In this document: piece by piece, positions 29,673 through 41,190 of the stretch
Layout of the letters: every line of letters starts with the position of its first letter
Position numbering within the stretch: the stretch's first letter is position 1
Source of the DNA: Geobacteraceae bacterium
GTDB lineage: Bacteria > Desulfobacterota > Desulfuromonadia > Geobacterales > Geobacteraceae
Assembly: GCA_024281055.1 (NCBI GenBank)
Contig: JAMXLF010000082.1
Coordinates: 1 to 41,190 of the forward strand
DNA: 41,190 nt
Direction: 5' to 3'
The notes under the pieces: generated by a model
What the model saw: only the letters and a program-made list of their open reading frames with translations
What the model was told of the DNA's origin: nothing
The model's database searches: none
Made by a program: the position numbers and the translations under genes

Positions 29673-32447
29673 CTACTTCACCGCTGCGAGGCACTTGGGG
29701 CAGATGGTCGGATGCTCGCTATCCTTCCCGATCTCCTCGTCGTAGCACCAGCAGCGCTCGCACTTCGCTCCGGGCGCCGCGGTCACCCGGATGGCGAGCC
29801 CGTCGATCCCCTCAGCCGCGTAGCTCTCGCCGGCAATCTCCTCCACCAGCTCCACCTTTGAGACGATGAAGACGCTCTTCAGCTCGGCGGCATACTCGCG
29901 CAGGAATGCGAGAAGCTCGGCCGGCGCCGCGATGGCGACGGCGGCGTCCAGGGAGTGGCCGATGACCTTGGCGACCCGGGCCTGCTCCAGGGCCTTGGAG
30001 ACCTCGCCCCGTACCTTGATGATCCGCTCCCAGCGCTCCACGAGGGTATCGTCCTTCCACTCCGGATGTGGCTCGGGGAAGGCGGCGACATGGACGCTCG
30101 CCTCGCGCTCGCCGGGGATGAACTCCCAGACCTCGTCGGCGGTGAAGGAGAGGACCGGGGCGACGAGGCGCACCAGGGTGTCGAGGATGCGGTACATGAC
30201 GGTCTGGGCGCTCCTGCGCTCCAGGGAGTCCTTCCGGCTCGTGTAGACCCGGTCCTTGAGGATATCGAGGTAGAAGGCGCTCATTTCCACGGTGCAGAAG
30301 CCGTTCACTGCGTGGTAGAGAACGTGGAACTCGTACTCGTCGTACGCCTTCAGTACCTTCTCCGTGAGGGCTTCCAGCTGGTGGAGGGCCCAGCGGTCAA
30401 GCTCCGGCATCTGCTCGAAGGGGATGCAGTCGGCGGCCGGGTCGAAATCATTGATATTGCCGAGGATGTAGCGCCAGGTGTTGCGGATACGGCGGTACGC
30501 CTCGGCGAGCCGCGTGAGGATTTCCGGGGAGATGCGGATATCGTCCCGGTAATCCTGGGCCGCTACCCAGAGGCGGAGGATCTCGGCGCCGAACTTCTTG
30601 ATCACCTCTTCCGGCGCCACGACGTTTCCCACCGACTTGCTCATCTTCCGCCCCTGTCCGTCGACGACGAAGCCGTGGGTGAGGACGGTCCGGTAGGGGG
30701 CGCGGCCGCGCGTACCGACACTCTCCAGGAGCGAGGAGTGGAACCAGCCACGGTGCTGGTCGCTTCCCTCCAGGTACATGTCCGCCGGGGAGGAGAGCTG
30801 CGGGTGCGGCTCAAGCACCGCCGCGTGGGAGACGCCCGAGTCAAACCAGACGTCGAGGATATCCATCTCCTTGGTGAAGGATGTGGCGCCACACGTGGGA
30901 CATTTCGTTCCAGGGGGCAGGAGCCGTTCCGCTTCCCAGTCGAACCAGACGTCGGCGCTCTCCTTCTTGAAGATCTCGGCAACGAACTCCATGGTCGGGC
31001 CGTCGGCCAGGTACTCGCCACAGGAGGTGCAGGAGAAGGCGGTGATCGGTACCCCCCAGGAGCGCTGGCGGGAGATGCACCAGTCGGGGCGGTTCTCGAT
31101 CATGCCGTAGATCCGCTCCCGCCCCCACTTGGGGACCCAGTCGACGTGGTTGATGGCGTCCAGCGCCTGCTGGCGCAGCTCGTTCGCCGCCATGGAGATG
31201 AACCACTGCTCGGTGGCACGGAAGATGATCGGCTTCTTGCAGCGCCAGCAGTGGGGATAGGAGTGGGTTACCTCACCGGCGCCCACCAGGGCGCCCACCT
31301 CCCGGAGCTTCTCGATGACGTGGGGGTTGGCGGCAAAGACGAACTCGCCGCCGAAGAACTCCAGGTTGCCGATGAACTTGCCGTGGTTATCCACCGGGTT
31401 GTAGATGTCGAGGCCGAACTTGAGCCCCATCTCGTAGTCGTCCTGGCCGTGCCCCGGGGCGGTATGGACGCAGCCGGTGCCCGCTTCGAGTGTCACGTGC
31501 TCACCCAGGAGGATGATGGACTCCCGGTCGTAGAGGGGGTGCTTGCAGCGCTTGTGGTCGAGGACCGTGGCCGGGAAGGTGGCGAGCACCGTTCCCTCCA
31601 GCTTGTTGGCGGCAAGGAAGCTGTCCTTCAGCCCCTCGGCGACAATCAGCACCTCGTCTCCCACCGCCACTGCAGCGTACGTGAAGTCGGGGTGGAGCGA
31701 GATCGCCAGGTTGGCCGGGATCGTCCAGGGGGTGGTGGTCCAGATCACCACGGAGACCTTCCGGCCGGCGAGCGCCGGCACGGCGGCAGATATGTCATCG
31801 ATCAGCGGGAATTTCACATAGATGGAGGGGGATTTGTGGTCGGCGTACTCGACCTCCGCCTCGGCCAGGGCGGTGACGCAGGAGGAGCACCAGTGGACCG
31901 GTTTCTTCCCCCGGTACAGCCCGCCGTTCCCGGCGAACTTCGCGAGCTCCGCCGCGGTGATCCCCTCGTATTCGTAGTTCATGGTGAGGTAGGGGGTTTC
32001 CCAGTCCCCCAGCACCCCGAGCCGCTTGAACTCGTCACGCTGGATGCCGATGAACTTCGCCGCATACTCCCGGCACTGCTTGCGCATCTCCAGCTTGGAG
32101 ATCTCGTGCTTCTTGCTCCCCAGGTTCTTCTCCACCTGCAGCTCGATGGGGAGACCGTGGCAGTCCCATCCCGGCACGTAAGGTGCATCGAAGCCGCTCA
32201 TCCGCTTCCCCTTCAGGATGATGTCCTTGAGGATCTTGTTGAGGGCGTGGCCGATGTGGATGTGGCCGTTGGCGTACGGCGGGCCGTCGTGGAGGATGTA
32301 TTTCGGTTTGCCCCGGCCGGCTTCCTCGATCTTCCCGTAGAGCCCCGATTTTTCCCAGCCGGCGAGGATTTCCAGCTCCTTCTGGGTCAGGTTGGCCTTC
32401 ATGGGGAATGCCGTTACCGGCAGATTGAGGGTGTCTTTGTAATCCAT
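29673..32447 (-). CDS. ileS: Isoleucyl-tRNA synthetase
   Basis: This is a class I aminoacyl-tRNA synthetase of 924 residues. The HIGH motif is at 64-67 (PYANGHIHIGHALN) and KMSKS is near residue 600 (GRKMSKSVGN). The editing domain (about 190-390, VVIWTTTPWTIPANLAIS) and a C-terminal zinc finger (CERCWCYDEEIG, CPKC) are present, as in the bacterial, mupirocin-sensitive type. GGAGG precedes the ATG. It is divergent from kup and cotranscribed with lspA. I saw no T-box leader in the short upstream region. Confidence 0.98.
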   Translation of the reverse strand: MDYKDTLNLPVTAFPMKANLTQKELEILAGWEKSGLYGKIEEAGRGKPKYILHDGPPYANGHIHIGHALNKILKDIILKGKRMSGFDAPYVPGWDCHGLPIELQVEKNLGSKKHEISKLEMRKQCREYAAKFIGIQRDEFKRLGVLGDWETPYLTMNYEYEGITAAELAKFAGNGGLYRGKKPVHWCSSCVTALAEAEVEYADHKSPSIYVKFPLIDDISAAVPALAGRKVSVVIWTTTPWTIPANLAISLHPDFTYAAVAVGDEVLIVAEGLKDSFLAANKLEGTVLATFPATVLDHKRCKHPLYDRESIILLGEHVTLEAGTGCVHTAPGHGQDDYEMGLKFGLDIYNPVDNHGKFIGNLEFFGGEFVFAANPHVIEKLREVGALVGAGEVTHSYPHCWRCKKPIIFRATEQWFISMAANELRQQALDAINHVDWVPKWGRERIYGMIENRPDWCISRQRSWGVPITAFSCTSCGEYLADGPTMEFVAEIFKKESADVWFDWEAERLLPPGTKCPTCGATSFTKEMDILDVWFDSGVSHAAVLEPHPQLSSPADMYLEGSDQHRGWFHSSLLESVGTRGRAPYRTVLTHGFVVDGQGRKMSKSVGNVVAPEEVIKKFGAEILRLWVAAQDYRDDIRISPEILTRLAEAYRRIRNTWRYILGNINDFDPAADCIPFEQMPELDRWALHQLEALTEKVLKAYDEYEFHVLYHAVNGFCTVEMSAFYLDILKDRVYTSRKDSLERRSAQTVMYRILDTLVRLVAPVLSFTADEVWEFIPGEREASVHVAAFPEPHPEWKDDTLVERWERIIKVRGEVSKALEQARVAKVIGHSLDAAVAIAAPAELLAFLREYAAELKSVFIVSKVELVEEIAGESYAAEGIDGLAIRVTAAPGAKCERCWCYDEEIGKDSEHPTICPKCLAAVK

Positions 32448-32491
32448 GGATCGCCTCCGCGGGTGCGCCGATTTCTGTCAATAAACATCTT

Positions 32492-32520
32492 AAATTACTG
32501 GGAAGCGGTTGAAAAGTCAA
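32492..32520 (-). promoter_or_regulatory. Possible promoter of ileS-lspA
   Basis: On the minus strand, TTGACT (32520-32515) and TAATTT (32497-32492) are separated by 17 bases, 45 bases before the ileS start. Confidence 0.45.
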
Positions 32521-32540
32521 GGAGGAAACAGGGATTGGAG

Positions 32541-32569
32541 TTGTCACGGCGGGCGCGAAATGCTATAAC
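32541..32569 (+). promoter_or_regulatory. Promoter of kup
   Basis: TTGTCA (32541-32546) and TATAAC (32564-32569) are separated by 17 bases, 31 bases before the kup ATG. Each box matches the consensus at five of six positions. Confidence 0.6.
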
Positions 32570-32599
32570 TACGTGGTTCATTAACGGACGGGAGCTGCT

Positions 32600-34420
32600 A
32601 TGAAAACCGGCAGAGGTGATTCATATTTCGGCGGGATCATCAAGTCGATGGGGCTGGTCTTTGGCGACATCGGCACGAGCCCGATCTATACCCTGACGGT
32701 GATCTTTGCCCTGACGAAACCTACCGAGGCGAACGTCTTCGGCATTCTTTCTCTGGTGGTCTGGACTCTGCTCATCCTCGTGACCGTCGAGTACGCCTGG
32801 CTCGCCATGAGCCTCGGGCGCAAGGGGGAGGGGGGGACGATCGTCCTCAAGGAGATCCTCGTCCGCATGCTGAAGTCGGGTCGCCGGGTCGCCTTCGTCG
32901 GCTTCCTCTCCTTTGTCGGGGTGTCGCTCCTCCTGGGCGACGGCGTGATCACCCCCGCCATCAGTATCCTCTCGGCGGTGGAAGGGATGGTGCTCATTCC
33001 CGGCCTGGAAGGGACCAGCCAGGGTGTGCTTATCCTGATCGCCGCCCTGATTGCCGTCAGCCTCTTCGTCTTCCAGTTCAAGGGGACCGACAAGGTGGCG
33101 GGCGCCTTCGGCCCCCTCATGGTCATCTGGTTTGCCGCCCTCACGCTCTCCGGCCTCATCGCCATCGCCGGTTGCCCGCGGATCGTCGCGGCGGTCAGCC
33201 CTCACTACGCCGTCAGGTTCTTCATGGACAACGGGATGGCCGCCTTCTTCGTCCTCTCGGAGGTCATCCTCTGCGCCACCGGCGGCGAGGCCCTCTACGC
33301 CGACATGGGGCACCTGGGCCGGCGGCCGATCGTCCGGGCCTGGTACTTCGTCTTCTGCGCTTTGGTGATCAACTACCTGGGACAGGGGGCGTTCGCCCTC
33401 CAGCACCCCGATACCAAGAACGTCCTCTTCGAGATGGTGCAGGGGCAATCGCGGCTCCTCTACATCCCGTTCCTCGTCCTCACCATCATCGCCACGGTCA
33501 TCGCCTCCCAGGCCCTCATCAGCGGGGTCTTCTCCATCGTCTACCAGGGGATCACCACCCGGATCATGCCCCTCATGAAGGTGGACTACACCTCCAGCCA
33601 CCTCAAGTCCCAGATCTACATCGGCTCGGTCAACTGGTTCCTCATGGGGCTCGTTATCTTCATCATGCTCATCTTCCGCAAGTCGGAGAACCTGGCCGCG
33701 GCCTACGGCCTTGCGGTCACCGGCACCATGACCATCACCGGCATCATGATGACCATGATCTTTGCCCGCACCACCAAGAAGTGGAAGGTGCCCATCGCGC
33801 TCTTCGTCACCCTGGTGGATGCCGTCTTTCTCGTCTCCAACCTCAACAAGCTTCCCCACGGCGGCTACTGGTCGATCATCCTCGCCGCCGTCCCCTTTGT
33901 CACCATCCTCGTCTGGACCCGGGGCCAGCGCGCCCTCTACCGGGCACTGAAGCCCCTCGACCTGGAGACGTTCCTCCTCTCCTACGAACAGATCTATGCC
34001 AAGGGGAAAAACATTCCCGGCACCGGCCTCTTCTTCACCCGGGAAGCACCGGTCGTACCCCCCTACGTCATCCACTGCATCATCCGGAGCAACATCATCT
34101 ACGAGCGTAACGTCTTCATCTCCATCATCCGGACCGACGAGCCGTTCGGCCTCAAGAGCCACCTGACAACGGGACTCGGCCCGGGGCTCGATGCCTTCGA
34201 GATCCGGGCGGGCTACATGGAGGTGATAGAGATAGAGAAGCTCCTGAAGAAGCACGACATCCAGGAGAAGGTCATCTTCTACGGTATCGAGGATATCGCC
34301 ACCACTAATCCCGCCTGGAAGGTCTTCTCGGCGATCAAGAAGCTCACCCCCAACTTCGTTCAGTTCAACAAGCTCCCGGCGAGCAAGCTCCAGGGTGTGG
34401 TGACGCGGGTCGAGATGTAA
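32600..34420 (+). CDS. kup: KUP/HAK/KT-type potassium transporter
   Basis: This low-affinity K+ uptake carrier has 606 residues. The family N-terminus is clear (LVFGDIGTSPIYTLTVIF), followed by twelve membrane helices (for example LLLGDGVITPAISILSAVEG) and a cytoplasmic C-terminal domain of about 150 residues (FIRTDEP-like ISIIRTDEPFG, GYMEVIEIEKLL). GGGAG precedes the ATG. It is transcribed alone, divergent from ileS, and ends 12 bases from the convergent methyltransferase-like gene. Confidence 0.96.
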   Translation: MKTGRGDSYFGGIIKSMGLVFGDIGTSPIYTLTVIFALTKPTEANVFGILSLVVWTLLILVTVEYAWLAMSLGRKGEGGTIVLKEILVRMLKSGRRVAFVGFLSFVGVSLLLGDGVITPAISILSAVEGMVLIPGLEGTSQGVLILIAALIAVSLFVFQFKGTDKVAGAFGPLMVIWFAALTLSGLIAIAGCPRIVAAVSPHYAVRFFMDNGMAAFFVLSEVILCATGGEALYADMGHLGRRPIVRAWYFVFCALVINYLGQGAFALQHPDTKNVLFEMVQGQSRLLYIPFLVLTIIATVIASQALISGVFSIVYQGITTRIMPLMKVDYTSSHLKSQIYIGSVNWFLMGLVIFIMLIFRKSENLAAAYGLAVTGTMTITGIMMTMIFARTTKKWKVPIALFVTLVDAVFLVSNLNKLPHGGYWSIILAAVPFVTILVWTRGQRALYRALKPLDLETFLLSYEQIYAKGKNIPGTGLFFTREAPVVPPYVIHCIIRSNIIYERNVFISIIRTDEPFGLKSHLTTGLGPGLDAFEIRAGYMEVIEIEKLLKKHDIQEKVIFYGIEDIATTNPAWKVFSAIKKLTPNFVQFNKLPASKLQGVVTRVEM

Positions 34421-36502: not shown

Positions 36503-37465
36503 ATGTCCGCTCCAACCGCCGTCCTTCTCCTCCAGATGGGGGGGCCGGACTCCCTCGACGCCGTTCAGCCGTTTCTCCTCAACCTCTTTTCCGACCGGGA
36601 CATTATCAAGATCGGCCCGTCGTTTCTCCAGCCGCTCATCGCCCGGTTCATCGTCAAACGGCGCGCACCGAAGGTGGTTGCCTGTTACGAGCAGATCGGC
36701 GGCCGGTCGCCGATCCGGGAGCTCACCGAGGCCCAGGCCCGGGCGCTCGAAAAGCAGCTGGGCGAGGGTTACCGCTGCTTCGTGGCGATGCGCTACTGGC
36801 GCCCCTCCACCCTGGAGGCGCTGGCGGCGATCAGGAAGGAGGGGATATCGCGGGTCATTGCCCTCTCCCTCTACCCCCACTTCTCCCGGGCCACCACCGG
36901 CTCGAGCCTCAACGAGCTCCAGCGGGTGCTCGGCGAGGCCGGGGTGCAGTTCCAGCTCACCACCATCGACCGCTTCTATAACCATCCTCTCTATATCGAG
37001 GCCCTCTGCGAGAAGATCGAGGAGGGGCTCGCCCGCTTCCCGGACCGGGACGGAGTCCATCTCCTCTTCTCCGCCCATTCCCTCCCCCAGTCCTTCATCG
37101 ACGCGGGAGACCCCTATCTCTCCCATATCATCGAGACGGTGAGCCTCGTGATGGCGCGACTGGGTGACATCGACTACCATCTCGCCTTCCAGTCCCGGGC
37201 CGGCCCGGTCAAGTGGCTCGAGCCTTCCACCGAGGAGATGCTCAAGCGGCTGGGGGAAGCGGGGTGCGAGAACCTCCTCGTGGTGCCCCTCTCGTTCGTG
37301 TCCGACCACATCGAGACCCTGTACGAGATCGATGTCCAGTACGCAGAGGAGGCCAAGGAGCTTGGCATCGCGAACTTCCAGCGCATCCCCTCGCTGAACG
37401 ACTCTCCCCGCTTCATCGAGTGCCTGGCTGATCTGGTGCTGGAAAACGTGAAAGGTGAAAGGTGA
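36503..37465 (+). CDS. hemH: Ferrochelatase HemH
   Basis: HemH inserts Fe2+ into the porphyrin ring at the end of haem synthesis, a heavy duty in a cytochrome-rich organism. It has 320 residues, typical for the family. Catalytic H192 ([13 protein letters not shown]) and E271 ([14 protein letters not shown]) are in place, as are the N-terminal [19 protein letters not shown] and the [15 protein letters not shown] motif. Whether it uses protoporphyrin or coproporphyrin III cannot be told by eye. Its last residues (VKGER) are encoded by a run of 7-bp repeats that also holds the start of the next gene. Confidence 0.97.
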
Positions 37466-37475
37466 AGGGTGAAGG
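37448..37475 (+). repeat. Four tandem heptamers GTGAARG at the hemH end
   Basis: GTGAAAG, GTGAAAG, GTGAAGG and GTGAAGG follow without gaps. They encode the last hemH residues, contain its TGA, and supply the GTG start of the next gene (third unit). Confidence 0.85.
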
Positions 37476-37659
37476 GAGCCTCCCGGTATGTGCCATCTGC
37501 CGCTCTGAATTCACGGCGGATAGTACCCGATCGGTCTTTGTCGAGGCCGGGGAGTGGTTGGCGGAAGAGGTGTGGCGGGATGCCGGGAAACTCTGCCCGC
37601 AGTGCCTGGAGAACCGGGCGCGACTGGCAATGATGTATCTGCACGAACGCAATACGTGA
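37462..37659 (+). CDS. Small zinc-ribbon protein
   Basis: This is a 65-residue protein of unknown function. Two CxxC pairs (VCAICRSEF near residue 10 and KLCPQCLEN near residue 45) are spaced like a zinc ribbon or rubredoxin-like knuckle. Between them lies an acidic segment ([17 protein letters not shown]). The GTG start overlaps the hemH stop (GTGA) and lies in a tandem repeat; no separate Shine-Dalgarno is needed if the genes are coupled. GTGAAAG-like units recur right at its 3' end (37656-37676). Confidence 0.65.
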
Positions 37660-37725: not shown

Positions 37726-38544
37726 ATGGAACACATAACTTTGGACGGAATAACCCTTTCCCTGGCGAGCCCGGTAGAGCTGCCGCTCAAGTGGGTGGGG
37801 CAGGAGGAGCTGCTGCGCCAGCTCCTCGCGGCCTGGCTCGTGATCGACGAGCGGGACATCCCCTTCAACCCGCGCCTCATCGGCAAGCCGGGGGTGGGAA
37901 AGACCACCCTCGCCTATGCCGCGGCCCGGGCCCTCGGGCGCAAGGTCTACCTCTTCCAGGCAACCATGGACACCCGCCCCGAGGACCTGATCGTCACCCC
38001 GGTGATCGGCCCGGACGGCAGGATCCAGTACGCCGCCTCGTCGCTCGTCACCGCCATGGTGAAGGGTGGGGTCCTCATCCTCGACGAGGGGAACCGGATG
38101 AGCGAGAAGGCGTGGGCGTCGCTCGCCCCGCTCCTCGACGACCGCCGCTACGTGGAGTCGATCATCACCGGCCTGCGGATCAAGGCCGCGCCCGAGTTCC
38201 GCATCGTCGTCACCATGAACGAGGACGCCTCAACCTTCGAGGTGCCGGAGTACATCCACTCCCGCCTTCAGCCCCAGATCTACATCGACTTTCCCGAGGC
38301 GGACGAGGAGCTCGCCATCCTCAAGGAGAACCTCCCCTTCGCCCCGAGCCGCATCCTGCGCTACGTGGTGGAGTTCCTCCAGCGGGCCCACGCCTCTGAC
38401 GAGCTCTACTCGGTGCGGGACGGGATCAACATCGCCCGCTACGCCCTGAAGATGATGCAGGCCGCCGAACAGGAGCCGGGGGCGGTCCTTCCCCTGGCGG
38501 TGGAGCGGATCCTGGGGGAAGAGGCGCTGCGGTATCTGAAGTAA
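37726..38544 (+). CDS. MoxR-type AAA+ ATPase
   Basis: This is an AAA+ ATPase of the MoxR/CbbQ (AAA_5) kind. I chose the ATG at 37726 (272 aa), with GGAG nine bases upstream, rather than TTG 37708. Walker A is at about 53-61 (GKPGVGKTT), Walker B at about 115-121 (GGVLILDEGNRM), and sensor 1 lies in RIVVTMNEDASTFEVPEYI; the arginine-finger region is HSRLQPQIYIDF. MoxR ATPases act as chaperones that remodel or insert metal into partner proteins, often with VWA-domain proteins. Here the only neighbour is the 661-aa protein, 14 bases downstream. Confidence 0.9.
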   Translation: MEHITLDGITLSLASPVELPLKWVGQEELLRQLLAAWLVIDERDIPFNPRLIGKPGVGKTTLAYAAARALGRKVYLFQATMDTRPEDLIVTPVIGPDGRIQYAASSLVTAMVKGGVLILDEGNRMSEKAWASLAPLLDDRRYVESIITGLRIKAAPEFRIVVTMNEDASTFEVPEYIHSRLQPQIYIDFPEADEELAILKENLPFAPSRILRYVVEFLQRAHASDELYSVRDGINIARYALKMMQAAEQEPGAVLPLAVERILGEEALRYLK

Positions 38545-38558
38545 GAACGGATCCCGCC

Positions 38559-40544
38559 ATGGCCCATCGCCTCCATCTCGAAACCTTCGGTCCCGTCCAC
38601 GCCCTCCCCATCCTCCACTACCGGCTGGAGTTCGCCCACCTCGTGCGTGAGGCGGTGGAGCGGGTGAAGCCCGACTGCATCGCCATCGAGCTCTCAACCA
38701 CCCTTGAAACGCCGTTCCTGCGCGGCATCCGGCGGCTACCCGAAATTTCCGTCCTCTCCTACGAAGTGAGCGCCGCCCATCCCAAGGGAGAACCGGCGGA
38801 CGCCCCCCGGAGCGTCTATCTCATCATCGAGCCTGCCGACCCCCTCGTGGAAGCAGCGCGACTGGCGGTGGAGCGGGGGGTGCCGCTCCATCTCGTCGAC
38901 CTTGATCTGGACGAGTATCCGCTGCACCAGGAACCGCTTCCCGACTCCTACGCGGTCCAGCGGCTGGGACTCGCCGCCTATTACCGGGAGTTCGTCGCCG
39001 CCTTCCGGGACACGCCTCCCGACCCGGAGGACCTGCGCCGGGAGAAGGGGATGGCCTTCCGCCTCCGGCAGCTCGCCCTCCGCCATGAGCGGATCCTCTT
39101 CATCTGCGGCATGTACCACCTGGAGCGGATCAGGGAGCTGTTCCCCCATCCCCAGGCCGAGCCGTTCGGCCGGGTGCGGCGGGAGGGGATTCGGCTCTTC
39201 AACCTCCACCCCGACTCCTGCCGGGAGATCCTCGGGGAATTTCCGTTCGTCTCTGCCATCTACGAGCAGCGGCGCGGCGCAATTCCCCCGGAGCCCGCCC
39301 GTGACGGGCTTTCCCTGCGCAAGCGCTTCAGCACCCTGGAACTCATCGCGGGTGGAAAACGGGATATCCCGGAGGATGAGGTGCTCAAGGAGTCCGTTAC
39401 GCGGAGCGCCCGGCACGTGGGGGTGGAGGGGGAGATGCCCGACCGGCAGCGGGCTCACCTGCGCCTCTTCCAGGAGGCCTCCCGGCACTACCGTCAGGAG
39501 ACCGGCGAGCCGGTCCACCTCTGGCAGCGGCGCGCCTTCTTCAAGTTCACCCGCAACTACGCCCTCCTGGCCGGACGCCTCCTCCCCGACCTCTACCAGC
39601 TCCTGGCCGGCGCCCGCGGCTGCGTGGACGACAACTTCGCCTACGCCTTCTGGCGGCTCGCCACCTTCTACCCCTGGCAGCGGGAAACGGCCGACCTTCC
39701 CACCATCCGTCTCACTCCCGCCGACCTCTGGGCGGGGAGCCGGCGCATCCGCTTCCGCCCCAGGGAACACCGGCGCGAGAAGGGGCTGTCCCACCTCGCC
39801 TTCCTCAAGCGGAAACGGGAGCGGCGCCCCGGCGAATGGCTTGATGGGTTCGACAACCCCTCCATCTGTTCCTATCCGCCCGAGGACGTGGTGATCGAGG
39901 ACTACGGCCGGTTTCTCAAGAAAAAGGGGGCGAAGCAGCTCTCCGAGGAGGAGGTGCGGGTGGAACCGTTCAGCGCGTCGATGCTGGACGGGATCGACGT
40001 GCGCGAGACCTTGCGCAACCTGCACGAGGGAAGGATCTACGTCCATGAGAACCAGCGGGTGAAGGGCGGGGTGGGGAGCGTGGTGGTGGTCTTCGACGAG
40101 GACCGGGGGGGCGAGCGCTTTCCGTATCTCATGACCTGGCTGGGGGAGCATGAACAGGAGTCGGACATGGCCTTCTACGCCACGCCTCCCGCCGACAACG
40201 TCGTCGGCCCCGGTATCTGCCGCTGCGAATACGGCGGCTTCGTCCTCTCCTACCCGCCGCGCCGGATGCTCGACGTCTGGCACGACCGGGACTACGCCTT
40301 CGCCCGGGGGAAGCACGAGGTGCTGCTGCTGGCGGCCCTCGATTACTCCCGGGAAAAGCACGTGGTCTATGCGGCACCCCGGCCGCCCCGGAGCATGTTC
40401 AAGCAGCTTGCTGCCCGCCTCGGCAAGAAGATCGTCTACATCCCGCTCGGGAGCCTGTCGCCGGTGAAGCTGAAGCGGCTCCGGGTCTTTCACGTCCTTG
40501 CCGGCCATGACAAGCGGGAGATCGCCCAAGACTACATCTGGTGA
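38559..40544 (+). CDS. Uncharacterised 661-aa partner of the MoxR ATPase
   Basis: I do not recognise a named family. The first 230 residues recall the TraB/ChaN/erythromycin-esterase-like group and DUF5682: HLETFGPVHALPILHYRLEF, then RVKPDCIAIELSTTLETPFL, LPEISVLSYEVSAAHPKG, LAVERGVPLHLVDLDLDEY, and RILFICGMYHLERI. DUF5682 proteins also occur beside MoxR ATPases, which supports the comparison. The C-terminal half is rich in Arg, Glu and aromatic residues (HLWQRRAFFKFTRNYALL, ICRCEYGGFVLSYPP) and has no clear motif. No signal peptide or membrane helix is seen. It probably works in the cytoplasm with the ATPase; the reaction is unknown. Confidence 0.6.
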   Translation: MAHRLHLETFGPVHALPILHYRLEFAHLVREAVERVKPDCIAIELSTTLETPFLRGIRRLPEISVLSYEVSAAHPKGEPADAPRSVYLIIEPADPLVEAARLAVERGVPLHLVDLDLDEYPLHQEPLPDSYAVQRLGLAAYYREFVAAFRDTPPDPEDLRREKGMAFRLRQLALRHERILFICGMYHLERIRELFPHPQAEPFGRVRREGIRLFNLHPDSCREILGEFPFVSAIYEQRRGAIPPEPARDGLSLRKRFSTLELIAGGKRDIPEDEVLKESVTRSARHVGVEGEMPDRQRAHLRLFQEASRHYRQETGEPVHLWQRRAFFKFTRNYALLAGRLLPDLYQLLAGARGCVDDNFAYAFWRLATFYPWQRETADLPTIRLTPADLWAGSRRIRFRPREHRREKGLSHLAFLKRKRERRPGEWLDGFDNPSICSYPPEDVVIEDYGRFLKKKGAKQLSEEEVRVEPFSASMLDGIDVRETLRNLHEGRIYVHENQRVKGGVGSVVVVFDEDRGGERFPYLMTWLGEHEQESDMAFYATPPADNVVGPGICRCEYGGFVLSYPPRRMLDVWHDRDYAFARGKHEVLLLAALDYSREKHVVYAAPRPPRSMFKQLAARLGKKIVYIPLGSLSPVKLKRLRVFHVLAGHDKREIAQDYIW

Positions 40545-40705: not shown

Positions 40706-41190
40706 TTAGTCTTTGGCGTGACACTTGTTGCACAGAGACCGCTGGTAGGTGGCGTAGACGGTGGCGGGCCGCTGGTAGAACGTAGCCGTGACTTCCGCCG
40801 TGGTACGGCCGCCAGCGGGAGACTGCGCAGATACATTGGACGAGTCGCTGCCGGGGTAAAGGCCTGCATAGGTCAGGAACTGGCTCTTGTTGTTCCACCG
40901 GGTCATGCTGTCCCAGCCAGTGGCGTGGGCCCTGTGGCAGGAGAGGCACATGACGTTGGAGTTGGTGTCGGCACCACCGGTCTGAGAGCCGTCATTCACT
41001 GCATGGGCGGCTAGCTGCGTACGGCTGTTGGTCCCTTCCTCGAACGGAACCATGGAGGTGTAAGCGGTCGCCACGGTGTTGGTGAAGTTACCGGAGTTCA
41101 CGTAGGCGTTGTAGTTGGAGAGGATGGTGTTATTGAGCTTGGAGTCGCTGCTGGCCGGGTGGATGAAGGAGGTGCCGGCGTCATAGGCAG
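40706..41190 (-). CDS. Multihaem c-type cytochrome (5' partial)
   Basis: The frame is open to the right window edge (reading AYDAGTSFIHPASSDSKLNN before the first GTG), so the N-terminus, including any signal peptide, is missing; about 160 codons are visible. Two haem-binding CxxCH motifs are present: NVMCLSCHRAHATGWD and RSLCNKCHAKD at the very end. The Asn/Ser/Thr-rich sequence resembles exported Geobacter cytochromes used in extracellular electron transfer, but the family cannot be fixed from this part. More haem sites may lie outside the window. Confidence 0.85.
   Translation of the reverse strand, partial: AYDAGTSFIHPASSDSKLNNTILSNYNAYVNSGNFTNTVATAYTSMVPFEEGTNSRTQLAAHAVNDGSQTGGADTNSNVMCLSCHRAHATGWDSMTRWNNKSQFLTYAGLYPGSDSSNVSAQSPAGGRTTAEVTATFYQRPATVYATYQRSLCNKCHAKD

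Follow-up and report, generated by a model that had tools for sequence, protein, structure and literature searches.

A conserved gene pair encoding a MoxR-class AAA+ ATPase and a 661-residue protein with a TIKI-like domain, found with no VWA gene beside it

Introduction

What works with a MoxR-class AAA+ ATPase when no VWA protein is encoded beside it? The question is raised by a 41,190-nucleotide stretch of DNA from a Geobacteraceae bacterium (contig JAMXLF010000082.1, positions 1 to 41,190, of the 4.4 Mb assembly GCA_024281055.1), hereafter the window. An ATPase of 272 residues is encoded at 37726-38544 on the + strand (translation might alternatively begin at a TTG codon 18 bases upstream), and a protein of 661 residues, here called the partner, is encoded at 38559-40544 on the same strand. 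The positions of the two open reading frames (ORFs) and the 14 bases between them had been given correctly by an earlier reading of the letters alone (the sequence-only reading). A passage of PMC3893208 states that MoxR ATPases generally co-occur with a VWA cofactor, and a passage of PMC9976466 describes a non-VWA partner, McrC, on the similar ring of McrB.

Full-length homologues of both proteins are conserved, with identities of 39-80% for the partner and 57-89% for the ATPase, and both ORFs are therefore real genes. The one annotated record gives the products no more specific names than 'AAA family ATPase' and 'hypothetical protein'. A search of the open-access literature found no paper mentioning DUF5682 (a family discussed below) and none on the ATPase-partner pair; two papers mention two or more of the genes yehL, yehM, yehP and yehQ, whose operon is also discussed below. 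The identity of the two genes and their pairing are well supported. The pair is read here as a two-gene AAA+ machine in which the partner would stand in place of the VWA adaptor and would carry a TIKI-type site; this reading is given a probability of about 0.5, and the mechanism of the ATPase-partner machine is about an even bet.

Co-occurrence and linkage of the two genes

Cut-offs for presence were fixed before inspection of a sample of 395 genomes of the phylum. The partner was found in 63 of these genomes, and the ATPase in the identical 63. The two genes lie on the same strand, ATPase first, with less than 200 bases between them in 41 genomes, 200-1000 bases in 12 and a larger distance on the same contig in 3; in 7 genomes they are on different contigs. 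Seven of the 12 intermediate gaps are overstated, because the N-terminal stretch of the partner missed the cut at E 1e-40. In a second phylum sample, centred on a locus titled Thermoanaerobaculales, both genes were present in the identical 14 of 287 genomes (less than 200 bases apart in 11, at about 2 kb in one and on different contigs in two). Genome G737 of this sample contains two partners and two ATPases. So do two genomes outside it, G508 and G509, with one pair adjacent in each. The second, divergent pair, side by side on contig 214 of G508 and contig 203 of G509, represents a paralogous version of the system; the divergent second partner in locus L161 is about 36% identical to the partner of the window.

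Of the relatives of the partner, 80 were kept. The ATPase gene precedes the partner gene on the same strand in 68 of them, at a distance of up to 150 bases in 48, of 151-1000 bases in 15 and of more in 5; in none is it on the opposite strand. The stretch examined contained no ATPase in 12 of the 80, three of which have less than 1200 bases of upstream sequence. The genomes of eight of the loci lacking an ATPase were searched, and seven carry it elsewhere, the exception being G511. The MoxR linkage is steady, and the outcome by which the sequence-only reading would have been refuted, homologues that usually lack a MoxR gene nearby, did not occur. In the family sample of 48 genomes, matches to the partner were found in 47 (one being a remnant in G002, described below, and one half a gene) and matches to the ATPase in 46; the two sets are not identical. 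The distances of ATPase and partner correlate with r 0.93 over 71 pairs, which fits joint inheritance but could be produced by the species tree alone. Because the genes are co-inherited and linked, the 661-residue protein is probably the dedicated partner of the ATPase, and the two may form a physical complex.

The ATPase

The ATPase matches the Pfam models AAA_5 (1.2e-20) and AAA_3 (4.3e-8). The Walker A and Walker B motifs and Arg 231 are retained in 75 of 75 homologues, and the sensor-1 Asn and arginine-finger Arg in 74 of 75, with one gap; the motif names were assigned by us. By domain and motifs, the protein is assigned to the MoxR-class AAA+ ATPases. The nearest solved sequences to its profile are midasin modules, followed by NorQ and CbbQ.

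In a tree of 35 rows the ATPase family forms one clade (support 100/100). Ten ATPases adjoining DUF5682 genes, of the YehL type, form a separate clade (support 100/99). Three rows annotated as CbbQ, NirQ, NorQ or GpvN and five rows labelled MRP by annotation and context fall outside the clade of the ATPase. The tree has few reference rows, and RavA and two further rows, one of them MRP, have very long branches, so no relations between the clades are claimed. In this tree the ATPase did not group with the CGN proteins (CbbQ/GvpN/NorQ), and it reaches only 38.6 bits with the GvpN model, for which the cut-off is 266.8. The pair resembles NorQ/NorD and CbbQ in that a MoxR-class ATPase has a dedicated partner, but this partner is not a VWA protein.

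Relationship of the partner to DUF5682 and TraB proteins

The sequence-only reading had linked the partner to DUF5682 and regarded the locus as a reduced form of a DUF5682 system. The link holds for one part of the protein. A profile of the partner family aligned with DUF5682 (PF18934; an alignment of 11 proteins including YehM of Escherichia coli) with an hhalign probability of 98.1 and an E-value of 8.3e-14 over residues of about 10-471, which correspond to the N-terminal half of DUF5682/YehM. This includes the mostly helical middle region of the partner, residues 270-400 (39366-39758, + strand). The invariant positions correspond when the alignment is read by eye: H20 to H11, E44 to E35, D114 to D101, R161-E162 to R175-E176, and G184xxH187 to G199xxH202 (partner first). 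In contrast, the partner itself scores 13.7 bits (E 0.02) with the Pfam model, below the gathering cut-off of 26 bits, and the C-terminal 240 residues did not match the DUF5682 alignment (probability 0.15).

Of 50 diverse homologues of the partner scanned at E 0.1, 29 match DUF5682 (best 1e-7), six match Pfam TraB_PrgY_gumN (best 0.0017) and six match NCBIfam traB (best 7e-4). A search of the 395 phylum genomes with the DUF5682 model gave eight matches, seven of them above the cut-off. Six of the seven are members of the partner family (L114-L119). All six pass through a match to model positions 1-89, though three do so only when neighbouring stretches are included, and automatic annotation may therefore call these six proteins DUF5682. 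The seventh is a true DUF5682 gene, preceded by a MoxR gene and followed by a VWA gene, and the eighth, below the cut-off, is a TraB protein. With the partner family profile, two TraB/PrgY/GumN proteins reach 29.9 and 20.1 bits, at loci that were found via the DUF5682 model and with E-values from a small set, in which the true DUF5682 protein reaches only 15.4 bits. No solved homologue of the partner family was found by sequence, the search giving seven rows at chance level only.

The gene order recalls that of the yehLMPQ operon of E. coli, where the gene immediately after that of a MoxR ATPase likewise encodes a protein sharing the N-terminal TIKI-like and middle regions. The two systems differ in the C-terminal 240 residues of the partner, which are unrelated by profile, in the clade of the ATPase, and in the neighbouring genes. 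A VWA profile was built from six DUF5682 operons and matched ten of eleven DUF5682 loci, the six source operons counted; in two of these ten the VWA part is fused to the DUF5682 protein (L130) or present in broken pieces (L129). The same profile found no match beside 81 copies of the partner gene (the window and 80 homologous loci) within the 3.2-14.0 kb examined per locus, which bears out the earlier remark that no VWA gene is present. SWIM and DUF5691 profiles also gave no match in partner-family loci within the stretches examined. Direct membership in DUF5682 was ruled out by the Pfam score, the C-terminal domain, the clade of the ATPase and the neighbourhood, and the idea of a reduced DUF5682 system found no support; the pair seems instead to be a system parallel to it, with an ATPase subfamily of its own. 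As a separate observation, the DUF5682 protein of a Streptomyces locus is fused to a VWA domain (L130, 3947-7711), and this fusion suggests joint action of DUF5682 and VWA.

Domain structure of the partner

The N-terminal domain of the partner comprises residues 1-240 (38559-39278, + strand), with invariant H20, E44, D114, R161, E162, G184 and H187. An AlphaFold model of the whole partner has a predicted local distance difference test score (pLDDT) of 85.4 and a predicted template modelling score (pTM) of 0.64. The single match in the viral library of Foldseek at E 0.001 is a TraB family protein (E 5.7e-5). When the N-terminal part was compared with solved structures, the highest Z scores were those of a ciliate complex IV subunit (9.8-10.4; three entries of one protein), followed by ChaN (2g5g) and HopBA1 (5t09), both at 7.9. 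RRSP and two similar entries reached 5.5-5.9. Histidine and other phosphatases are level with them at 5.5-5.8, which leaves the first five rows as the only distinctive ones. A passage of PMC6254334 names ChaN, HopBA1 and RRSP as proteins of the TIKI superfamily and gives its catalytic set as 2His/2Glu.

By profile matches and predicted structure, the N-terminal domain is placed in the TraB/ChaN/TIKI superfamily, each line of evidence alone being moderate. The TraB/ChaN/Ere-like pattern that had been noticed by eye is thereby backed, and the four short motifs quoted for it are all present in the translation. The likeness to TraB/PrgY/GumN, ChaN, Ere and TIKI proteins lies in this domain, which in the window is embedded in a three-part protein co-inherited with an AAA+ ATPase. 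H20, E44 and H187 are invariant in 86 of 86 rows of the partner alignment, which includes two repeats and covers proteins of 599-738 residues. Judged from motif order and the DUF5682 alignment, they are probably equivalent to the catalytic residues of the TIKI superfamily. The highest mean hydropathy over 19 residues is 1.09, and there is thus no sign of a membrane segment.

The C-terminal domain comprises residues 424-661 (39828-40541, + strand). Modelled alone, it is predicted with confidence (pLDDT 88.1, pTM 0.80). Foldseek found no match in the PDB at E 0.001, and the best structure comparison reached a Z score of 3.1. The weak rows include RNase H, RuvX, integrases, PIWI, Kae1/HypF, uS11, Pelota and the creatinase N-domain; many are redundant HIV entries. 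Many of these proteins presumably have an RNase H-like motif in common, and these weak matches are no more than a hint of an RNase H-like fold for this domain. It is the best-conserved portion of the partner: the mean pairwise identity in 22 rows below 65% identity is 0.558 for the C-terminal domain, 0.36 for the helical part and 0.368 for the TIKI-like domain. The corresponding value for the ATPase is 0.68, taken over the 16 of these 22 rows in which an ATPase is present.

Proposed mechanism

The MoxR-class ATPase would assemble as a hexamer. The partner would occupy the role that a VWA adaptor has in other MoxR systems and would probably dock on the ATPase or on a client through its middle region and C-terminal domain. 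Its N-terminal domain offers a TIKI/ChaN-type site of two invariant His and one Glu. This site would either hydrolyse a bond or hold a ligand or metal, while ATP hydrolysis would remodel the client, by analogy with the role proposed for NorQ/NorD and RavA/ViaA in maturation. The steady chromosomal presence of the genes points to a housekeeping task in maturation or quality control and not to defence.

Several observations weigh against this reading of the pair as a two-gene machine. In genome G036 (90% complete, 280 contigs) the partner is intact, but a search at E 1e-60 found no ATPase, 5 kb upstream of the partner gene having been examined; a second copy of its partner gene is cut by a contig end. 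G511, a draft of 2.3 Mb, has the partner and no ATPase was found. In G004 (78% complete) the ATPase has an early in-frame stop, and no partner was found, including in the 4 kb downstream. All three are draft assemblies, and they are possible splits of the pair. G002 is 100% complete, contains no ATPase and retains of the partner only the last ~29 codons, about 70 bases after the ferrochelatase gene hemH (L162, 5471-6575). This reads as one deletion that removed both genes, a joint loss that agrees with the pairing, while it also shows the pair to be dispensable in at least one lineage. In the comparison of predicted structures, Foldseek found no match of the whole partner in the PDB at E 0.001, and the matches of the N-terminal domain are middling (Z 7.9-10.4, root mean square deviation about 5). 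The position two residues before the first His is Ile or Val in 84 of 86 rows and not Glu. In Ere and RRSP, a Glu at this position belongs to the catalytic set, so catalysis by the partner is uncertain; other invariant Glu residues (98 and 162) could substitute for the second Glu. The VWA search covered the neighbourhood of each locus and not whole genomes, and a VWA protein encoded elsewhere could serve the ATPase.

The same residues bear on another account, in which the partner is an esterase or peptidase that acts through its TIKI His/Glu site, while the ATPase supplies it with substrate or switches it on, with no maturation of a client. The invariance of the two His and Glu 44, and their alignment with invariant residues of DUF5682, speak for such an ATP-gated hydrolase; in active members of the superfamily, residues of this kind are catalytic for esters and peptide bonds, as stated in part of PMC6254334. 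However, one of the four 2His/2Glu residues is missing at the expected position. ChaN, one of the structural matches, is titled a heme-binding protein, so a TIKI-type fold does not imply hydrolysis. Moreover, it is the C-terminal domain and not the TIKI-like domain that is better conserved. A hydrolase of this kind is possible but rather unlikely.

Gene neighbourhood and mobility

When neighbouring genes were clustered, none besides the two was shared by distant loci; the next largest cluster is present in eight loci, all close relatives. The other neighbours are limited to lineages (among them phasin, ABC1 kinase, transglutaminase, SelB, EF-G and hemE/hemH). In the window, hemH lies upstream at 36503-37465 on the + strand (Pfam Ferrochelatase, 1.6e-119), probably outside the two-gene unit. 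Between it and the ATPase gene is a small ORF of ~65 residues at 37462-37659 on the + strand, whose likely GTG start overlaps the hemH stop. It was overlooked in the sequence-only reading. The product has two CxxC motifs and is zinc-finger-like; it matched only zinc-finger models below threshold in Pfam and nothing of note in NCBIfam. With tblastn it was found in 20 loci besides its own, upstream of the ATPase and with 52-78% identity, and it follows hemH wherever hemH is present in the stretch. All 20 loci belong to the family sample or to records titled Geobacteraceae or its genera, and the protein could be a lineage-specific third component.

The presence of hemH upstream in Geobacteraceae (hemE in a few loci), together with the fold match to the heme-bound ChaN structure 2g5g, would fit a link between the pair and ferrochelatase through the handling of heme or iron, heme being bound by the ChaN-like domain. 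This is improbable. The gene hemH was found in the examined stretch of 18 of 110 loci, the window included, many loci having little upstream sequence, and no heme gene was seen among about a dozen neighbours scanned at distant loci (PP-loop, MFS, aminotransferase, response regulator, kinase, EF-G and others). Furthermore, hemH stays with the ATPase where the partner is kilobases away (L031, L032) and is retained without the pair in G002, so its synteny may be incidental.

Judged by the records searched, the system is not mobile. The ATPase-partner system was absent from 50,697 phage records and present in one of 72,556 plasmid records, and a pattern-based scan of viral contigs gave two relatives. 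Among the ATPase matches listed (of 285 plasmid records), that of a Neochlamydia pair has 63% identity and the other 39 have 34% or less. PADLOC models gave no match for the partner at E 1 and weak AAA matches only for the ATPase. A known anti-phage defence system was rejected on these grounds. MoxR cores often occur in predicted conflict systems, among them the MoxR-vWA ternary systems (VMAP, iSTAND and others; PMC7159879), where the core likewise has a partner of its own. That the pair is a relative of these, serving against phages or in self-killing, is nevertheless very improbable, given the lack of an adjacent vWA, the constant architecture, the near-universal presence in the family and these search results.

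Two other ORFs of the window were recorded. Downstream of the partner gene, at 40706-41188 on the - strand, lies an ORF that continues beyond the window; it contains CxxCH motifs and probably encodes a cytochrome c. An ORF of 882 residues at 29955-32603 on the + strand has no Pfam match at E 1 and overlaps an ORF of 924 residues on the other strand, and either strand may be the coding one.

Implications

Both genes are together or both are missing in nearly all sampled genomes. This pattern suggests that a machine family of which little is understood has a two-part form that is as yet undescribed. Taken further, and at somewhat less than even odds, the ATPase may represent an undescribed VWA-free MoxR subfamily in several phyla. 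Its almost invariable companion would be a three-part protein combining a TIKI-type hydrolase site with a very conserved RNase H-like C-terminal domain, and the two would form an ATP-gated hydrolase or a maturation machine.

The choice of clients by MoxR ATPases is poorly understood, and a minimal pair without VWA would allow one to ask what replaces the VWA domain. It would also open a route into the equally uncharacterised YehLM/DUF5682 systems, and would assign a function to a protein found in nearly every sampled genome of the Geobacteraceae and in several other phyla.

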